The translations under genes were made by a program, and so were the position numbers. The notes below the pieces were generated by a model. The model saw only the letters and a program-made list of their open reading frames with translations. It was not told the DNA's origin and did no database searches. Below are positions 15,750 to 23,381 of a DNA stretch of 64,000 nt, one piece after another (the stretch's first letter is position 1; each line of letters starts with the position of its first letter). Location: NCBI GenBank assembly GCA_017549205.1, contig JAFYVH010000021.1, forward strand, positions 62,001 to 126,000. Reading direction: 5' to 3'. Source of the stretch: Clostridia bacterium. GTDB taxonomy: Bacteria > Bacillota > Clostridia > UBA1381 > UBA9506.

Positions 15750-15782
15750 GCAAAAACCCCCATGGCCGAAGCCATGGGGGTT
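15750..15782 (-). terminator. Terminator of the synthetase/ECF operon
   Basis: Perfect 12-bp stem AACCCCCATGGC (15755-15766) / GCCATGGGGGTT (15771-15782), loop CGAA. On the minus strand a T run follows. It closes the six-gene operon. Confidence 0.9.
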
Positions 15783-15850: not shown

Positions 15851-17209
15851 TTACATTTTCATATGGTATTCACCGATATTTTCATGTTCAAGAATTGCTG
15901 GAAAAACCCTGTCCAATCCTATAAACAATCCTGTGGTTGTGGGCATACCATAATAATGCGCATGTAAAAAGGCAGTAAAATCTCTTTTTTCCTGTCTTCC
16001 CTTTTCGTTGAGTTCTGCTTTTTGTCTGGCCAATATAGCCTCAAGCTCGTCGGCATTTGTTTTCCCCACCGAAGACTCCATTAGCGTAGCTCCGTTAACT
16101 ATCAAATAGCTTCTATATAGAAAATGTTCATTTTTGTTTTGAATTAACGGGCTTATACCGGCAGGCAAATCGCTTACAATGACAGGCTCTATTTGTTTTG
16201 TAATGATTTTAGTTTTGAAATATTTATAAATTTCTTTAATGTAATTTTCGTCATTTATATCATACTTAAATGCCTCGTGGAGTAAGGCTTTTACCTGTTC
16301 CTTTTGAGTTAAAAAGTCGAGACCTGTATCGGCTCTAAAATAATCAGAAAACGAAATGGTTTTTATATCCTTCTTCATACAAGGATTAATTTCTATGTTG
16401 CGGTCAGCAAGTATTTCTTCAAGGCTGCTTACAAATGATTTAAAAATCTTTTTTATAAGCGCAAGATTCTCAGGTTCGCTACTATATGCAGTATAAATTT
16501 CTGCGGCCGAATAAGGAACAATAGATTTAGAGGTTATGTTTCCGTTTCTAAAGTAATATCCTAATTCATAAACTTTATTAAATCCGCCGGCGATATAGTG
16601 CTTCAATGCTATCTCAGAGGTTATTCTTAAATATACATCTTCTCCGCTGTCTACTACATGTGTAACAAACGGACGAGCGTTTCCGCCAAAAAAATTTTTT
16701 TGTAAAACAGGGGTAAGACACTCTATATATCCATTTTCTTGTAAAACATTTCTAAGAGACTGCATAATTCTATCTTGTGCGATAATTCGCAGAGAACAAA
16801 TATCGTCACTGGTGATGTAACTATGGAAAAATTGTTTTTTCTTTTCGTTTGTAAACGGATTGTTTGGAAGCAAACCCGTATCATTCTCCTTTAATAAGCA
16901 AGGGGCAACAATATGTATGGATGTAAGCAGGAATTCACATTCTCCGAACTGAGTTTTTGTTTCTTCAGAAAAACCACAAATTACATCCCCGATTTGAAGA
17001 GAAGTTGCTATTTCCCCATAATTATTTATTGTATCTTCTATTCTGCATTTATATTTTTTTCCATTAGAAATCACTTGTAATAAAATTTTTTTCTTAATGC
17101 GAAAAAGCTTCACGATTCTTCCGGAAAAGAAAGTCTCATTCTGTTTTAACTCCAAGAGCGTCTCGGGATCACATAAAATGTGTTGTGGTATATTTCTTTC
17201 TTTTATCAT
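15851..17209 (-). CDS. LysRS-like class II aminoacyl-tRNA synthetase paralogue
   Basis: A 452-residue protein laid out like lysyl-tRNA synthetase: OB-fold at about 25-100, then a class II core with motif 1 LTPVLQ (165-170), GGNARPFVTH (175-184), motif 2 YYFRNGNI (about 218-225) and motif 3 GLFIGLDR (427-434). Key positions differ from true LysRS. The motif 2 FRNE is FRNG, the NPEFTMLE stretch is replaced by VPYSAAE, and the ALEYGMPP segment used in lysine recognition reads AHYYGMPT. It may therefore activate another amino acid or modify a non-tRNA target, as PoxA/GenX does. The ATG overlaps the previous stop (ATGA). Last gene of the operon. Confidence 0.85.
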   Translation of the reverse strand: MIKERNIPQHILCDPETLLELKQNETFFSGRIVKLFRIKKKILLQVISNGKKYKCRIEDTINNYGEIATSLQIGDVICGFSEETKTQFGECEFLLTSIHIVAPCLLKENDTGLLPNNPFTNEKKKQFFHSYITSDDICSLRIIAQDRIMQSLRNVLQENGYIECLTPVLQKNFFGGNARPFVTHVVDSGEDVYLRITSEIALKHYIAGGFNKVYELGYYFRNGNITSKSIVPYSAAEIYTAYSSEPENLALIKKIFKSFVSSLEEILADRNIEINPCMKKDIKTISFSDYFRADTGLDFLTQKEQVKALLHEAFKYDINDENYIKEIYKYFKTKIITKQIEPVIVSDLPAGISPLIQNKNEHFLYRSYLIVNGATLMESSVGKTNADELEAILARQKAELNEKGRQEKRDFTAFLHAHYYGMPTTTGLFIGLDRVFPAILEHENIGEYHMKM

Positions 17210-18042
17210 TGTAATTCTCCGTTCCATGATGCATTGCAAACTTCTTCAAACAGCTCCAAGGCTTTTCGGCAGAACAGGGACAATTCGTTCCAGTTGTGAA
17301 TAGGGTACCGCTCAGAATGCCAGATTTTTTCAATTAACTCTTTGTATTGAGGAAAGAGCAGACTTAATTCATAACAACATGTGGTTAAATGCATGGAAAA
17401 AATATTTTTCTTAAGAAAAATTGGGACAGCAAATCCCCTAATTATATTCCTCATAAACCAGACACATAAAAAATCGCAGCCTTTTTGTTTTCCCATATAG
17501 AAAATATTCTCGGCTGTATCAATCATTTTCAGCGTTTCGGCAGAATCACCAACTGTTTGTCTATATAATTTCTTAAGGAGCTCCGGGTTACAAATGCAAG
17601 GGGGTAGTTTTGATATAAAATCTGCTCCATACAAGGTTTTTCCAGTCAGTTTAAGATTTAAATACAAACGAGTATTTTTTTCGTTTTGACACACATCTTC
17701 AAAATCAACACCGCTTATATCTACCATTTGAAATAAATGGCTATATTTGCTGGATGCAACACCCGCGATTTTTTCTAAAATGGATTCTCCGTCAGCAGTA
17801 TGTTTGTTTAAAAAAACGACTAAATCCAAGTCTGAAATCTTTTTGATAAAGCCGCCGTAAGCCAGGCTTCCCCTGAGCACGATGGATTTTACATCGTCAT
17901 TCAGTTCCGCAATAATACTATTTTTTATATCATCTATTGCTTTTTTTAATTCTTCTGATTCTTCAATCATTTTAGCATTTGCGATTGAAGTCAGCTCGTT
18001 TGCGTTATTAGATGGAATATAAAATCTTTTTTCTTGTTCCAT
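17206..18042 (-). CDS. Nucleotidyltransferase-domain protein
   Basis: A 278-residue protein with a polymerase-beta-type fold near the N-terminus. The family signature is VLRGSLAYGG followed by SDLDLVVF, giving the two metal-binding Asp; a third Asp is plausible in MVDISGVD. The C-terminal 150 residues are helical, as in kanamycin-nucleotidyltransferase-like enzymes. Such proteins move a nucleoside monophosphate onto a small molecule or protein; the acceptor here is unknown. GAGGTG overlaps the upstream stop. Its TGA overlaps the next ATG, so expression is coupled to the LysRS-like gene. Confidence 0.82.
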   Translation of the reverse strand: MEQEKRFYIPSNNANELTSIANAKMIEESEELKKAIDDIKNSIIAELNDDVKSIVLRGSLAYGGFIKKISDLDLVVFLNKHTADGESILEKIAGVASSKYSHLFQMVDISGVDFEDVCQNEKNTRLYLNLKLTGKTLYGADFISKLPPCICNPELLKKLYRQTVGDSAETLKMIDTAENIFYMGKQKGCDFLCVWFMRNIIRGFAVPIFLKKNIFSMHLTTCCYELSLLFPQYKELIEKIWHSERYPIHNWNELSLFCRKALELFEEVCNASWNGELQ

Positions 18043-18056
18043 ATGGATTACACCTC

Positions 18057-20009
18057 TTAAAACACAATTTTCTCATTAATATGTGACTGGAAACAATCAA
18101 GGGTTTGATCGCTGAGGACATAACAAATCCCTGACCGCTTTTGATATTCAACCAAAAGATCAATTAGTTTTTTTCTGTTTTTTTCATCAATGAACTCAAA
18201 GGGTTCGTCTAAAATGATTACATCTGGTCTTTGAGCAATAAAACACAGTAAAAGGAGAATTCGTTTTTGACCACCACTTAAAAAGTAAGGAGGAAAATCC
18301 TTGTATTTTAAAAGTCCGACATATTCTAAAAGCAAATACACAAACTGTTTAAATTCGTTGTTGACACGACAACACAAGAAAATCTCATCTTCAACAGAGG
18401 ATGTAAAAAATTGCTTGTTTACTTCTTGCAACATCATTAAACACCGAATCCTTGCCTTGCTTTTTCTAAGACATTCAAAAATGTTTTTATCCAAGGTGGT
18501 TTTTCCACAGCCGTTTTTCCCTAAAATGGCTATATTTTTACCATTTTCTATCTCGATGCTTTCTACCGGGACATTAAAATCGCTGATAAAGTCATTGCGG
18601 AGCTTCACCCTTTTTTTAAAAACTTTTTTTTCTGTTTTACAACCATCAAGCAAATCGAGATTTGAGTCTATTGTTTCGTCATCTTTTTGAGGTATGCAAA
18701 AAGATTCTTTTACGATTCCGGAATCAATCATATGGTGCCATGTTGCTTCCTTATCTTTAAAGTAAGTATCGTGAGTGATTATGACAATTATTTTATTGTT
18801 TTTAACAGAGGTTAACAACTCAAACAAAGCATCTTTTGAAGAGTCGTCTAAGAATGCGGTTGGCTCGTCCAACAAAACAATTTTATGATTATCATACAAT
18901 AATTCCGAAATAAGCTCAAACTTTTTTCTTTCTCCGCTTGAAAGCTCGTTCATATTTCGTGTTTCCATATCAATATGTGAAAGCATAAACTTTTTAAGCC
19001 ATATTTCCCTTTTTGAGATGGGAACATCTTTCAACATGCTTTCCGGCGTATCAAACAATAACGAGCGTTCAACGCCCTGCGGAACATATCCAGTAATATT
19101 TTTATCGGTTTCATCAAGGTTAAGCAGAATGCTTCCTTCTGCTTTGATAATATTTGGAATAACGCCAGTGATTGCATCGAACAATGTACTTTTCCCAATG
19201 CCGTTTTCACCCCAAACAATATTTAAGGTGCCTAAAGGAAAAAAAGTTTCCAAATCGCGTATAACAGGGTCTTTGCAATCGTAATAACTAATATCTTTTA
19301 GGTTTACATTCAATTCGCTGATTACGGTGTTGTTCGGACTGTCAGGAACGGGCTTGTTGACAATATTCTTTATTCTATTGTCGTCGATAAAAAGAATTTT
19401 TCGACAGTTAACAATCATAGACAAGGCTTCAAAAGTTAATGACGAAAAAACATAATACATTTTTTTGAACACATTAGATTTTATACATCTCATTTCATAG
19501 CTTCTCTTTATATCAGAGTAAAAAGAAATGAAATAGGCGATAGAATTAAATATTAATACAATTGTTATTACAACGATTGCCGGCAAATCAACTTTTTTTA
19601 AATCGGTTAATAGCTCATGCTGCGAAGTTAAACCCAAAAACAACTGTCCGCCCGTGAAAAAACCATACAGTCTCAAAATGGCAATTTTAAAATCATGGGA
19701 GGTGTATACACGAAGCAGTGCTTCTTTTATGTTGGTCTGGGTCCACAACTGACCGACAAACACGCCCCACACCACAATTAAAACCGCAGAAGACAACAAG
19801 AGAAATTTGGCTATTTTAAAAGAATTGCGCCCTAAAAACAAGAGGTTACAAAAAACAGTTATAGCCAAAATTACACACATAATATTAATGTTGTTTCCCA
19901 AAAAGAAAACGGCTGACACGCCAAAAAGAATCGCCTTTAAAAAAAACGCCTCTAAAATCGGTTTTCGGTAAATTCCAAGAAAGGTTTTATACTCTTTTTT
20001 TATTTCCAT
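18057..20009 (-). CDS. Fused ECF transporter EcfT-EcfA-EcfA protein
   Basis: A 650-residue fusion. Residues 1-200 hold several membrane helices consistent with a divergent EcfT. Two ABC ATPase modules follow: Walker A GENGIGKST (267-275), signature LSSGE (356-360) and Walker B VLLDEP; then GKNGCGKTT (497-505), LSGGQ (577-581) and IILDEP. Energy-coupling factor modules import vitamins and other micronutrients with a separate S protein, which is probably the adjacent gene. All three shared subunits in one chain is unusual, since they are normally separate genes. The start overlaps the previous gene by 10 nt; GAGG precedes it. Confidence 0.85.
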   Translation of the reverse strand: MEIKKEYKTFLGIYRKPILEAFFLKAILFGVSAVFFLGNNINIMCVILAITVFCNLLFLGRNSFKIAKFLLLSSAVLIVVWGVFVGQLWTQTNIKEALLRVYTSHDFKIAILRLYGFFTGGQLFLGLTSQHELLTDLKKVDLPAIVVITIVLIFNSIAYFISFYSDIKRSYEMRCIKSNVFKKMYYVFSSLTFEALSMIVNCRKILFIDDNRIKNIVNKPVPDSPNNTVISELNVNLKDISYYDCKDPVIRDLETFFPLGTLNIVWGENGIGKSTLFDAITGVIPNIIKAEGSILLNLDETDKNITGYVPQGVERSLLFDTPESMLKDVPISKREIWLKKFMLSHIDMETRNMNELSSGERKKFELISELLYDNHKIVLLDEPTAFLDDSSKDALFELLTSVKNNKIIVIITHDTYFKDKEATWHHMIDSGIVKESFCIPQKDDETIDSNLDLLDGCKTEKKVFKKRVKLRNDFISDFNVPVESIEIENGKNIAILGKNGCGKTTLDKNIFECLRKSKARIRCLMMLQEVNKQFFTSSVEDEIFLCCRVNNEFKQFVYLLLEYVGLLKYKDFPPYFLSGGQKRILLLLCFIAQRPDVIILDEPFEFIDEKNRKKLIDLLVEYQKRSGICYVLSDQTLDCFQSHINEKIVF

Positions 20010-20935
20010 ATTTCTTTATCCTCTATTACATGCACATGCAGGTCTTTTTTTAAGCTCTCTAATTTTTTTGCAAGGTCTTTTAAAGCAAAAAGTTCACTTT
20101 GATAATGGGAAACACAAAAAACATTTAAAGGCATGTTTTCCAGATAGGTTAGCACTTTTGCAGAGCGGTCACTTCGGTTTCGTATGATGACATCTCCACA
20201 AAGACAAAAATCGCACTTTTGATTTTCCATTTCTTTTAAAATATCTGTTGTATTTGTCATTCCTGACCAAACCGCTACCTTTAAAGGACGACTGTCACAG
20301 ATTGTTCTTAAGCCCTGTATTGCATCATTACAGTTTGCATATTGATTTCCATAATACAGAATTTTATCGAACTGTTCAACAAAATTGAAAGCCTCTTTTT
20401 CTAAATGCAGATAATATCCCATTTCGGCAAAAGGAAAAGAGTAAATGGCTTGCTGCAGCTTTTTTGCGCCCCAAACATTTTCTAAAAAAGACTTGTGTGT
20501 ATTAATCCTTGAACTGTTGATGTCCAGAGGGAGATGCAGTACGCAGATTTGTACCTTGCTAGCATATAATCTTTTATACAGTTCCGGTTCACAAAAAAAG
20601 GAATCTGTTCCGGAACTGCTTTCTTGGTATCCGCAATCTATATCAAAAAAGTGGTGCACGACAATTAGTACCTTTTTACCGTCTAATTGATTTAATACAT
20701 AATCCAAACAATTTTGATCGAGAAATACAGAGAACACAACAGTATCTATTTCCCGGTCTTTTAGATCGAAAAAAAGACCATTTGCATACTTCAAAAATTC
20801 GCTACTGAAAAGCGATCTAACATCTTCTGAAACAGAGCCTATTCGTTTTAAACCGGAAGTATCATTATATCGCTCTAAAACAGAAAAATCCACGCAAGAA
20901 GACATTATTTCCTTTACGCTGCTAACTCTAACCAT
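20000..20935 (-). CDS. Nif3-like dinuclear-metal protein
   Basis: A 311-residue protein with scattered Nif3/YbgI features: VLIVVHHFFDIDC (metal His pair), LHLPLDINSSRIN at the place of the AHTNLD motif, a GDVIIRN segment and HYQSELFALKDL matching the family's C-terminal HYxSE. The sequence is divergent and the central GGG motif is reduced (SGMTN). Nif3-like proteins bind two metals; their biochemical role is poorly settled. GGAG before ATG 20935 sets the start. Its place between transporter subunit genes suggests a hydrolase or metal-handling role for the imported compound, which is speculative. Confidence 0.68.
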   Translation of the reverse strand: MVRVSSVKEIMSSCVDFSVLERYNDTSGLKRIGSVSEDVRSLFSSEFLKYANGLFFDLKDREIDTVVFSVFLDQNCLDYVLNQLDGKKVLIVVHHFFDIDCGYQESSSGTDSFFCEPELYKRLYASKVQICVLHLPLDINSSRINTHKSFLENVWGAKKLQQAIYSFPFAEMGYYLHLEKEAFNFVEQFDKILYYGNQYANCNDAIQGLRTICDSRPLKVAVWSGMTNTTDILKEMENQKCDFCLCGDVIIRNRSDRSAKVLTYLENMPLNVFCVSHYQSELFALKDLAKKLESLKKDLHVHVIEDKEIWK

Positions 20936-20969
20936 CACAATCTCCAAAATAATATTATTTTAATAATGA

Positions 20970-21002
20970 AGCAGAAGGCGAGTCCAAACATCACCTTCTG
21001 CT
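20970..21002 (-). other. Intra-operon hairpin
   Basis: AGCAGAAGG / CCTTCTGCT stem between the EcfS and Nif3-like genes. No T run follows on the transcribed strand, so it looks like a processing or stability element, not a terminator. Confidence 0.5.
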
Positions 21003-21009
21003 TTTTTGT

Positions 21010-21555
21010 TTAAAGATTATATTTTTTGGCTATTGGCGAGATAAACTTAAGCAACGGAGTTGCAATTATAAAGTAAACGCATACACCGCCAAACCACCAG
21101 GGGAATAAAGCCGGGAGGAAAGCTTCTTTTGGGATGATTCCCACAACAACCCATCCGCCTAATACCCAAAAAGCTGAAATTAACGGAGCGATCAGATATA
21201 AAACCGCGAGAGTTATGAAATCAACAGCGTTTTTAATGCTGCAGTTCCGTTTAAGAGCTTTCATAACATAAACGATAAATACCGAAGCTAACACATTGCC
21301 CCATGCGCCGTATATCGGGAAGAAGGAAAAACCGCCTGAGGTAATTGATGCAAGGATAAGTCCTATATATATACCTATGCTTCCTCTCCAACCAAACAAA
21401 TACACAAACAAAACATAAAAGGCAGAACTTACATAAAACGAAGAAACGGATAAAATACCTGTCGGGAAACCAATCACGGCAAAGAGATCAAGAACGGCGG
21501 ATAAGCCGGCAATAATGGCTATTATAATACAATTCGTAATCACATTTTTTTTCAT
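21010..21555 (-). CDS. Probable ECF transporter S component
   Basis: A 181-residue polytopic membrane protein with five or six predicted helices, e.g. IIIAIIAGLSAVLDLFAVIG and FYVLFVYLFGWRGSIGIYIG. Length, basic N-terminus and position beside the fused EcfT-A-A gene fit a substrate-binding S subunit. The family cannot be named and S components are poorly conserved, so the substrate is unknown. The ATG overlaps the thrS-like stop (ATGA), with GGAGG upstream inside that gene. Confidence 0.68.
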   Translation of the reverse strand: MKKNVITNCIIIAIIAGLSAVLDLFAVIGFPTGILSVSSFYVSSAFYVLFVYLFGWRGSIGIYIGLILASITSGGFSFFPIYGAWGNVLASVFIVYVMKALKRNCSIKNAVDFITLAVLYLIAPLISAFWVLGGWVVVGIIPKEAFLPALFPWWFGGVCVYFIIATPLLKFISPIAKKYNL

Positions 21556-23324
21556 TTTTTAAAGTCCTCCTCATTTAATGGTAAATTTAATGTTTTTTCG
21601 TTAACTAATTTTGTGCACAAACCAACAAAATCTTCCAGAGGCACATTATCCACCTTGTTGCCACCGCGAATGTTGATAGAAACAGTATTGTTGTTTGCTT
21701 CGTTTTCACCGACAACTAAAACATAGGGGGTTTTGGCGTTGCGGAAGGCCTTTATCTTCTTGTTCATATGGTTTTCAGATAAGTCTGCTTCACAACGAAT
21801 GCCGGCAGCTTTTAACGCCTTGAGAACTTTGGATGCATATGCATTATGCTCTTCGCGAATGGGCACAACGGCGACTTGAAGCGGTGCTACCCAGAACGGG
21901 AAAGCGCCTTTAAAGTTTTCAATTAAAATACCAATAAACCGCTCCACAGAGCCATAAATAACACGATGGATGATAACGGGCACTTTTTCTTTGCCATCTT
22001 TGTCAGTATATGTGATATCAAAATTGCGTGGCAACTGGAAGTCTAACTGAATGGTACCCATTTGCCATTGTCTCTTGAGCGCGTCGTTCATCATAATATC
22101 GATTTTCGGGCCGTAGAAAGCGCCGTCGCCCTCGTTAATATCATAACCACCTTCGCCGTAACGCTTATCGAGGATTTCTTTAAGCTCTCTTTCTGCCTTG
22201 TCCCACAACTGGATATCACCCATAAAATCTGCAGGTCTTGTGGAGAGTTCAGGACGATAAGTCAAGCCAAAAACATTATAGAACAAATCAGCAATATCAA
22301 GAATTGCATTTACTTCATCATAGATTTGCTCTTCGGTTATAAAGTTGTGAGAGTCGTCCTGCCGGAACATTTGAACGCGCAACAAACCGTTTAATTCACC
22401 GGATTTTTCATTGCGGTGAAGTACATCACAATCGGACAAGCGCAAGGGGAGCTCCCTATAACTGCGATTCTTTCTCTTATAAACTAAAATAGAGTTTGGA
22501 CAGTTCATGGGTTTAACGCCATAGGCGTTGTTTTCATCAACCGGAATGACAAACATTCCATCTTTATAGTGATCCCAATGGCCGGAGGTGATCCACAGAG
22601 AGTTGCTGTTGATTAAGGGAGAAGAAATTTCTTGATAGCCTCTGTTTTCGTGTTCCTCACGCCAGAAATCTAAAATGGTGTTAAAGAGTTTCCAGCCTCT
22701 TGGCAACCAATAGGGCATGCCTGGAGCGGTAGGATCTAAAAAGAACAAGTCAAGCTGGGGACCTAATACTTTGTGGTCACGCTCTTTTGCTTCTTTTAAG
22801 AAATCCATGTGCTCTTTTAACGCTTCTTTATTCTCAAAAGCGAACACATAAATTCTTTGCAGAACTTCATTGTTTTCGTCGCCTCTCCAATAAGCAGATG
22901 AAACAGATTTTATTTTAAAAGCACAGCCTAAAAGCTCAGAGGCGTTATCAACATGAGGACCTCTACATAAATCTGCAAAATCGTCACCGGTATAGTAAAC
23001 GCCCACCGTTTCATCCGGGAGTTCGTTAATGAGTTCTTCTTTAAACCGCTGGCCTTTAAACAGGTTCAAGGCTTCTTCGTGAGAGACATCGACTTTTTTA
23101 AAGTCTTCCTTACGCTTCAAGATTTCCCTCATTTTGCTTTCGATGGTGGGAAAATCTTCAGGCGTAACCTGTCTTGGCAGAACAAAATCATAGTAAAAAC
23201 CTTCGTCTATTTGAGGGCCTATTGCCAGTTGCACATTCTCTGCCCCAAAAATTTCCAGGATTGCTTTTGCTAAAATGTGTGACAAAGAGTGTCTGTAGCA
23301 CTCTGAAAACATACTTGAGTTCAT
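21552..23324 (-). CDS. thrS: Threonyl-tRNA synthetase lacking TGS domain
   Basis: A 590-residue ThrRS that starts directly at the editing domain; the N-terminal TGS domain of standard enzymes (about 640 residues) is absent. Editing residues are present (HSLSH at 12-16, CRGPH at 120-124). The catalytic zinc ligands are kept: Cys in MNCP, His in DDSHNF and His in VIIHRVIYGS. Motif 2 is the DCDVLHRNEKSG variant, and CPGH is changed to CPNS. The C-terminal anticodon-binding domain is intact. No T-box leader is seen. Start chosen 7 nt after GGAGG; an adjacent ATG at 23327 is possible. First gene of the operon. Confidence 0.92.
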   Translation of the reverse strand: MNSSMFSECYRHSLSHILAKAILEIFGAENVQLAIGPQIDEGFYYDFVLPRQVTPEDFPTIESKMREILKRKEDFKKVDVSHEEALNLFKGQRFKEELINELPDETVGVYYTGDDFADLCRGPHVDNASELLGCAFKIKSVSSAYWRGDENNEVLQRIYVFAFENKEALKEHMDFLKEAKERDHKVLGPQLDLFFLDPTAPGMPYWLPRGWKLFNTILDFWREEHENRGYQEISSPLINSNSLWITSGHWDHYKDGMFVIPVDENNAYGVKPMNCPNSILVYKRKNRSYRELPLRLSDCDVLHRNEKSGELNGLLRVQMFRQDDSHNFITEEQIYDEVNAILDIADLFYNVFGLTYRPELSTRPADFMGDIQLWDKAERELKEILDKRYGEGGYDINEGDGAFYGPKIDIMMNDALKRQWQMGTIQLDFQLPRNFDITYTDKDGKEKVPVIIHRVIYGSVERFIGILIENFKGAFPFWVAPLQVAVVPIREEHNAYASKVLKALKAAGIRCEADLSENHMNKKIKAFRNAKTPYVLVVGENEANNNTVSINIRGGNKVDNVPLEDFVGLCTKLVNEKTLNLPLNEEDFKK

Positions 23325-23352
23325 CATTTTGCCTCCAATTACATTTTTTTTC

Positions 23353-23381
23353 ATTGTATCACAACTCAAAAAAAAAAGCAA
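23353..23381 (-). promoter_or_regulatory. Promoter of the ThrRS/ECF/LysRS-like operon
   Basis: Minus-strand TTGCTT (23381-23376), 17 nt, TACAAT (23358-23353). Only about 20 nt separate the likely start site from the ATG, too short for a T-box or other riboswitch. Confidence 0.78.

Follow-up and report, generated by a model that had tools for sequence, protein, structure and literature searches.

A candidate import-and-processing gene cassette behind a putatively transferred thrS gene in a Clostridia bacterium

What could join a threonyl-tRNA synthetase gene, a putative importer, a Nif3-like gene, a nucleotidyltransferase gene and a lysyl-tRNA synthetase-like gene at a single locus? These six consecutive open reading frames, all on the minus strand, are present as claimed in the window, i.e., the whole 64,000-nucleotide stretch of DNA that we analyzed from a Clostridia bacterium genome (1.39 Mb, 21 contigs, 92% complete; G000). 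The junctions given in a preliminary description of the locus are also exact, with ATGA overlaps at 21552-21555 and 17206-17209 and a 10-nt overlap at 20000-20009. The features are, in the direction of transcription:

23353-23381, minus strand: possible weak thrS promoter, TTGCTT-17-TACAAT (read directly; below the scan threshold)
23337-23355, minus strand: 19-nt copy (18/19) of the S gene start, just before thrS (other copy at 21538-21556)
21552-23327, minus strand: thrS, encoding a threonyl-tRNA synthetase (ThrRS) without TGS domain, 591 aa (TIGR00418)
21010-21555, minus strand: gene for a putative S (substrate-binding) component, 181 aa (six predicted helices, weak MASE1 match, adjoins the ECF-type module)
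20968-21001 (about), minus strand: terminator- or processing-like hairpin in the S gene/nif3 gap (folding energy)
20000-20935, minus strand: divergent Nif3/DUF34 gene, 311 aa (PF01784 and metal motifs)
18057-20009, minus strand: gene for a single-chain CbiQ-like + ABC + ABC transporter, 650 aa (two PF00005 matches, sub-threshold PF02361)
17206-18042, minus strand: gene for a Pol-beta-type nucleotidyltransferase, 278 aa (PF01909 and GS...DxD)
15851-17209, minus strand: gene for a LysRS-like paralogue with an altered active site, 452 aa (NF001756, PF00152, residue comparison)
15755-15782, minus strand: intrinsic terminator closing the cassette (terminator scan and folding)

The thrS start is most likely the ATG at 23327, which follows a GGAGG, because two close ThrRS homologues have their starts at roughly the corresponding place; 23381 lies too far upstream. 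The nif3 and LysRS-like genes probably start at 20935 and 17209, respectively. The last four genes of the cassette overlap or lie 14 nt apart, and the S8 peptidase gene downstream of them is not conserved in genus mates. Pfam and NCBIfam searches bore out the family assignments made earlier for all genes but that of the S component, which no curated ECF-S model matched and MASE1 matched weakly. The description of the locus as an unusual gene set with a probable importer and modifying enzymes was supported.

The ThrRS is an ordinary enzyme. It scored 630 bits against TIGR00418 (cut-off 384) and matched PF00587, PF07973 and PF03129 i.e., the core, editing and anticodon domains, with TGS unmatched. 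The preliminary description had raised the idea of a resistant target copy and of a second thrS elsewhere, which a search of this 92% complete genome contradicted, as a single ThrRS was found. As thrS is single, housekeeping and above the curated cut-off, and its closest homologues occur without the cassette, a role as resistant or extra copy was rejected. ThrRS proteins of genus mates are only 36-46% identical to it, as against 64% and 63% for those of two genomes from other families of the class (G061 and G192, respectively). In a 26-sequence tree, which is to be read with caution as to long branches and composition, the host grouped with G061 and G192 with support of 100/100. Because the tree sets it with distant relatives and not with genus mates, thrS is, on its sequence, a laterally transferred housekeeping gene. 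Transfer had been suggested from AT-rich codon use, and for thrS the tree provides the backing. Composition alone is insufficient: GC content is 34-35% in the last four genes, 39% in the S gene and 41% in thrS, compared with about 45% nearby, but the window has AT-rich genes elsewhere on the chromosome too, dnaN (37% GC) among them. The possibility that the cassette is conserved alongside this type of thrS was rejected, since in G061 and G192 the gene has different neighbours.

The one genus contains at least four lineages of ThrRS, at thrS loci L050-L073, i.e., those of G000, of G005 and G009, of G003 and G004, and of G001, G002, G006, G007 and G008. G003 carries two ThrRS copies, a pattern that points to repeated ThrRS displacement.

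The transporter protein contains two PF00005 ABC domains with Walker A/B and signature motifs. Its N-terminal CbiQ-like domain scored 20.7 bits (E 3.5e-4) against PF02361, and 24.1 in another search, the cut-off being 25. As the second ABC domain of this gene product (18057-20009) reads LSDQT where the H-loop histidine is expected, one of the ATP sites may be degenerate. The only other CbiQ in the host genome is the canonical one. None of the curated ECF-S models matched the S protein, for which the best hit was a weak one to MASE1 (E 0.0016), and a fold search with its low-confidence six-helix model (pLDDT 60) gave no match and was uninformative. The fold of S components is known to recur in the membrane domains of some receptors, MASE1 not being named in that study (PMC11109136). 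The six-helix protein is the only candidate at the locus, and a putative one, for the S component. A riboswitch or T-box hinting at the substrate was not found at the locus.

Genus mates and one member of the order (L088-L095) carry a second ECF system in which ABC, ABC and S domains are fused in proteins of 829 and 896 aa; owing to this fused S domain, their second CbiQ was rejected as belonging to an orthologous transporter. Since the neighbours of these systems are large secreted proteins and, in one locus (L090), a CobO-like gene, they probably serve corrinoid uptake.

The nucleotidyltransferase scored 30.2 bits against PF01909 (cut-off 21), and its GS...DxD motif is intact, with RGS at residues 57-59 followed by D71xD73; its single-sequence structure model had a pLDDT of 43. 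The only relative in the plasmid collection was a Pantoea protein of 23% identity encoded in a peptide-synthetase (NRPS) locus, and the neighbourhoods of the Vibrio and Pseudomonas relatives of that protein gave no functional context. Matches to CBASS cyclases were weak (E 7e-7) and limited to the N-terminal catalytic part; the cassette as a defence system was rejected, the matches being generic and weak. Weak NCBIfam matches to ANT(3''), ANT(4') and ANT(9) (E 0.003-0.06) raise the alternative that the locus confers resistance or self-protection. The nucleotidyltransferase would then inactivate a drug in the manner of ANT enzymes, the ABC protein would export it or protect the ribosome, and thrS would be the resistant target. 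Consistent with this, both obafluorin and borrelidin target ThrRS (PMC10619133, PMC11252418), thrS is foreign by the tree, and the ABC domains obtained their best NCBIfam score against ribosomal-protection ABC-F proteins. That score, however, was 126.7 bits against a cut-off of 380, all other resistance-model matches likewise fell far below cut-off, and the N-terminal membrane domain of the ABC protein is unlike ABC-F. With no second ThrRS copy, no such neighbours beside the relatives of thrS and no biosynthetic core gene recognized in the cluster, we consider the resistance reading improbable.

The Nif3-like protein, at 38.8 bits against PF01784 (cut-off 23.4), keeps the main metal motifs of its family, i.e., HH at 94-95, H134...D138 and H277...E281. 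It is very divergent, with 28 bits against TIGR00486 (cut-off 131), and a PDB search yielded no match. A role in metal handling has been proposed for the DUF34/NIF3 family, the function of which is unsettled (PMC8469502). The closest Nif3 found was 26% identical and lies in a sugar-metabolism locus of G349 (L031, 1414-2268), beside sugar isomerase-like, alcohol dehydrogenase and glycosidase genes.

For the LysRS-like protein, LysRS was the best-scoring HMM, with 176 bits against NF001756 (cut-off 468) and 172 against a second LysRS model (cut-off 428), ahead of EpmA (74); the match to PF00152 reached 128.8 bits. Compared with 72 canonical LysRS, the protein keeps E199, R221, E237, Y239 and R434, which we take to be E. 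coli LysU E240, R262, E278, Y280 and the arginine of motif 3; among the retained residues are the arginines of motifs 2 and 3 and the glutamate that binds the alpha-amino group. At near-invariant core positions, T375 and G382 each replace a glutamate, E378 replaces an asparagine, FRNE reads FRNG (G223) and S229 replaces a histidine; T375, E378 and G382 presumably correspond to LysU E421, N424 and E428. Y368 aligns with LysU E414. Invariant OB-fold residues are also replaced (R by F36, F by L43, D by S48 and Q by K54), at positions that we presume to contact the anticodon. Because anticodon-contact residues, Mg2+ glutamates and two ATP contacts are lost, classical aminoacylation is unlikely and a role as tRNA synthetase very unlikely, and the aminoacylation suggested earlier is weakened to that extent. 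The canonical lysS expected elsewhere in the genome was found, as a normal LysRS on contig 12.

These residues bear on a further explanation, in which the LysRS-like enzyme would still activate an amino acid and transfer it to the imported or nucleotidylated molecule, as part of modified-peptide or aminoacyl-conjugate biosynthesis. LysRS paralogues with new acceptors do exist i.e., PoxA/EpmA acting on EF-P and LysX on lipid (PMC9437257), and the retained arginines and alpha-amino-binding glutamate would suit such an activity. The two glutamates that bind Mg2+, the one of FRNE and a conserved histidine are all replaced, however, and HisZ is a described aminoacyl-tRNA synthetase paralogue without adenylation (PMC9437257). 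We therefore regard conjugate biosynthesis as quite improbable. By analogy with HisZ, the protein may bind an amino acid without adenylating it, or it may have a changed chemistry.

The strong terminator reported at the end of the operon was confirmed at 15755-15782, where a 66-nt region folds at -31.5 kcal/mol (z -5.1). The single promoter proposed at 23353-23381 fared less well; TTGCTT-17-TACAAT can be read there, but only 3/6 positions agree at -35 and a consensus scan did not return it. There may be more than one transcription unit. In the gap that separates the S gene from nif3, an 83-nt region folds at -24.9 kcal/mol (z -5.0; 0/200 shuffles as good), a T-rich stretch follows the hairpin, and the promoter scan gave a weak promoter-like match at 20986-20957. 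Given this strong hairpin, the promoter-like match and the tight packing of the last four genes, there may be two separately adjustable transcription segments, one with thrS and the membrane gene, the second with the remaining four genes. A second, weaker stem lies beside the 20968-21001 hairpin, just before the nif3 start, where an attenuator or processing site is possible.

The start of the S gene (21538-21556) is copied at 18/19 positions as a direct repeat at 23337-23355. Of the window's roughly 2,350 ATGs, no other besides this copy reaches 17/18 identity to the S gene start. The repeat is probably the scar of a rearrangement, which from its position just before thrS would have joined thrS to the cassette, in either direction. 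Together with the hairpin and its weak promoter-like match and the difference in GC content between thrS and the S gene (39-41%) and the other genes (34-35%), this duplication is consistent with two unrelated units joined by insertion, one made up of thrS and a small membrane gene, the other a cassette of the nif3, ABC, nucleotidyltransferase and LysRS-like genes, which would have a promoter and a function of their own. On the other hand, a T-A-A' protein of the CbiQ-like kind depends on an S partner, for which the adjoining membrane gene is the obvious candidate, and the one other CbiQ of the genome is canonical. We hold two unrelated units to be a minor, if real, possibility.

The cassette proteins are missing from genus mates. 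An orthologous set was not found in the 862 genomes touched overall (each cassette protein being searched in part of them) or among plasmids, phages and IMG/VR. Neither 60 relatives nor a further 397 genomes from the phylum sample yielded an orthologue of the LysRS-like protein, the matches being canonical LysRS or more distant; the Nif3-like protein had none in about 390 genomes of the class, in 94 from the order or in 26 from a different class; and the transporter had none at E 1e-45 in 320 genomes of the class. Searches of plasmid, phage and viral collections found no close relatives, and a phage or plasmid origin was rejected on that account. LysRS-like pattern scans of about 85,000 genomes returned nothing or, with the conserved pieces joined, only canonical LysRS, an absence that is not proof because the scan requires an exact 8-residue match and its sensitivity is low. 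Viral scans with two hand-made alignments, in which invented rows and not real homologues steered the patterns, also returned nothing. L139 and L144, metagenome assemblies titled Chlamydia trachomatis, appeared beside uncultured gut bacteria in the LysRS pattern scan, and their titles look doubtful. A literature search found no paper on this gene set, whose parts are known and whose combination is rare and seemingly undescribed, but not a proven new system.

We tentatively favor, at somewhat short of an even chance, an accessory cassette (S, nif3, T-A-A', nucleotidyltransferase and LysRS-like) that imports and processes one small molecule behind an unrelated, acquired thrS. The preliminary description had itself named a chance cluster with this thrS as the only ThrRS as the contrary case; thrS is indeed the only one found, but the five remaining genes do not look like a chance cluster because four of them overlap or nearly touch. 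In the favored reading, the six-helix protein would bind the compound outside the cell and dock on the single-chain CbiQ-ABC-ABC module for ATP-driven uptake. The nucleotidyltransferase would attach a nucleotide, probably AMP, thereby trapping, activating or inactivating the compound. The LysRS-like protein would bind an amino acid or aminoacyl-like ligand as a ligand-binding or regulatory partner, or perform a changed ligation, and the Nif3-like protein would provide a metal or a metal-dependent step. At the level of sequence, gene order, close packing, domain identities, the intact nucleotidyltransferase site, the degraded synthetase site and the single foreign ThrRS support it, as does the fusion of T, A and A' into a single chain beside a six-helix protein. 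Against it, the S assignment draws on protein size, predicted helices, gene position and a weak match to MASE1, the CbiQ match lies below the Pfam cut-off, the S gene/nif3 hairpin may separate both parts, and the set is known from one genome. Import with cytoplasmic processing of a micronutrient appears to be the best and most economical reading. The more specific proposal of an undescribed uptake-and-modification pathway, in which the altered LysRS paralogue would be an amino-acid sensor or a regulatory or ligase partner of a small-molecule nucleotidyltransferase, with a single-chain ECF importer and a Nif3 metalloprotein, we consider unlikely.

If the genes cooperate, they would represent a new import-and-activate route for a micronutrient and a new role for a synthetase paralogue outside translation. 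They would also tie Nif3/DUF34 to one small molecule, giving a handle on the function of this family (PMC8469502). If they do not cooperate, the locus would still illustrate how transfer can replace a housekeeping thrS, here one that has come to adjoin an orphan cassette.

Each part resembles a known system and departs from it. Like class II LysRS, EpmA/PoxA and LysX, the LysRS-like protein has an OB fold and a class II core with the motif 2 and 3 arginines, whereas it scores far below every cut-off and its anticodon, Mg2+ and two ATP residues are gone. Its likeness to HisZ, an aminoacyl-tRNA synthetase paralogue without adenylation beside a metabolic enzyme, is solely one of possible working, and HisZ is derived from HisRS and partners with HisG. 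The nucleotidyltransferase shares the GS...DxD core and a similar length with NTP_transf_2 enzymes i.e., ANT/KNTase-like enzymes and the Pantoea NRPS-locus protein, but at no more than 23% identity. The Nif3-like protein shares the HH, H..D and H..E metal motifs of the DUF34/NIF3 family, yet is very divergent from it. With dedicated ECF transporters such as LhaSTA and CbiMQO, finally, the module has in common a T-like membrane domain, two ABC domains and a small partner with six predicted helices. Unlike those systems, it holds T, A and A' in one 650-aa chain with a sub-threshold T match, its S protein matches none of the curated S families, its second ABC domain lacks the H-loop histidine, and it adjoins nucleotidyltransferase, Nif3 and LysRS-like genes.
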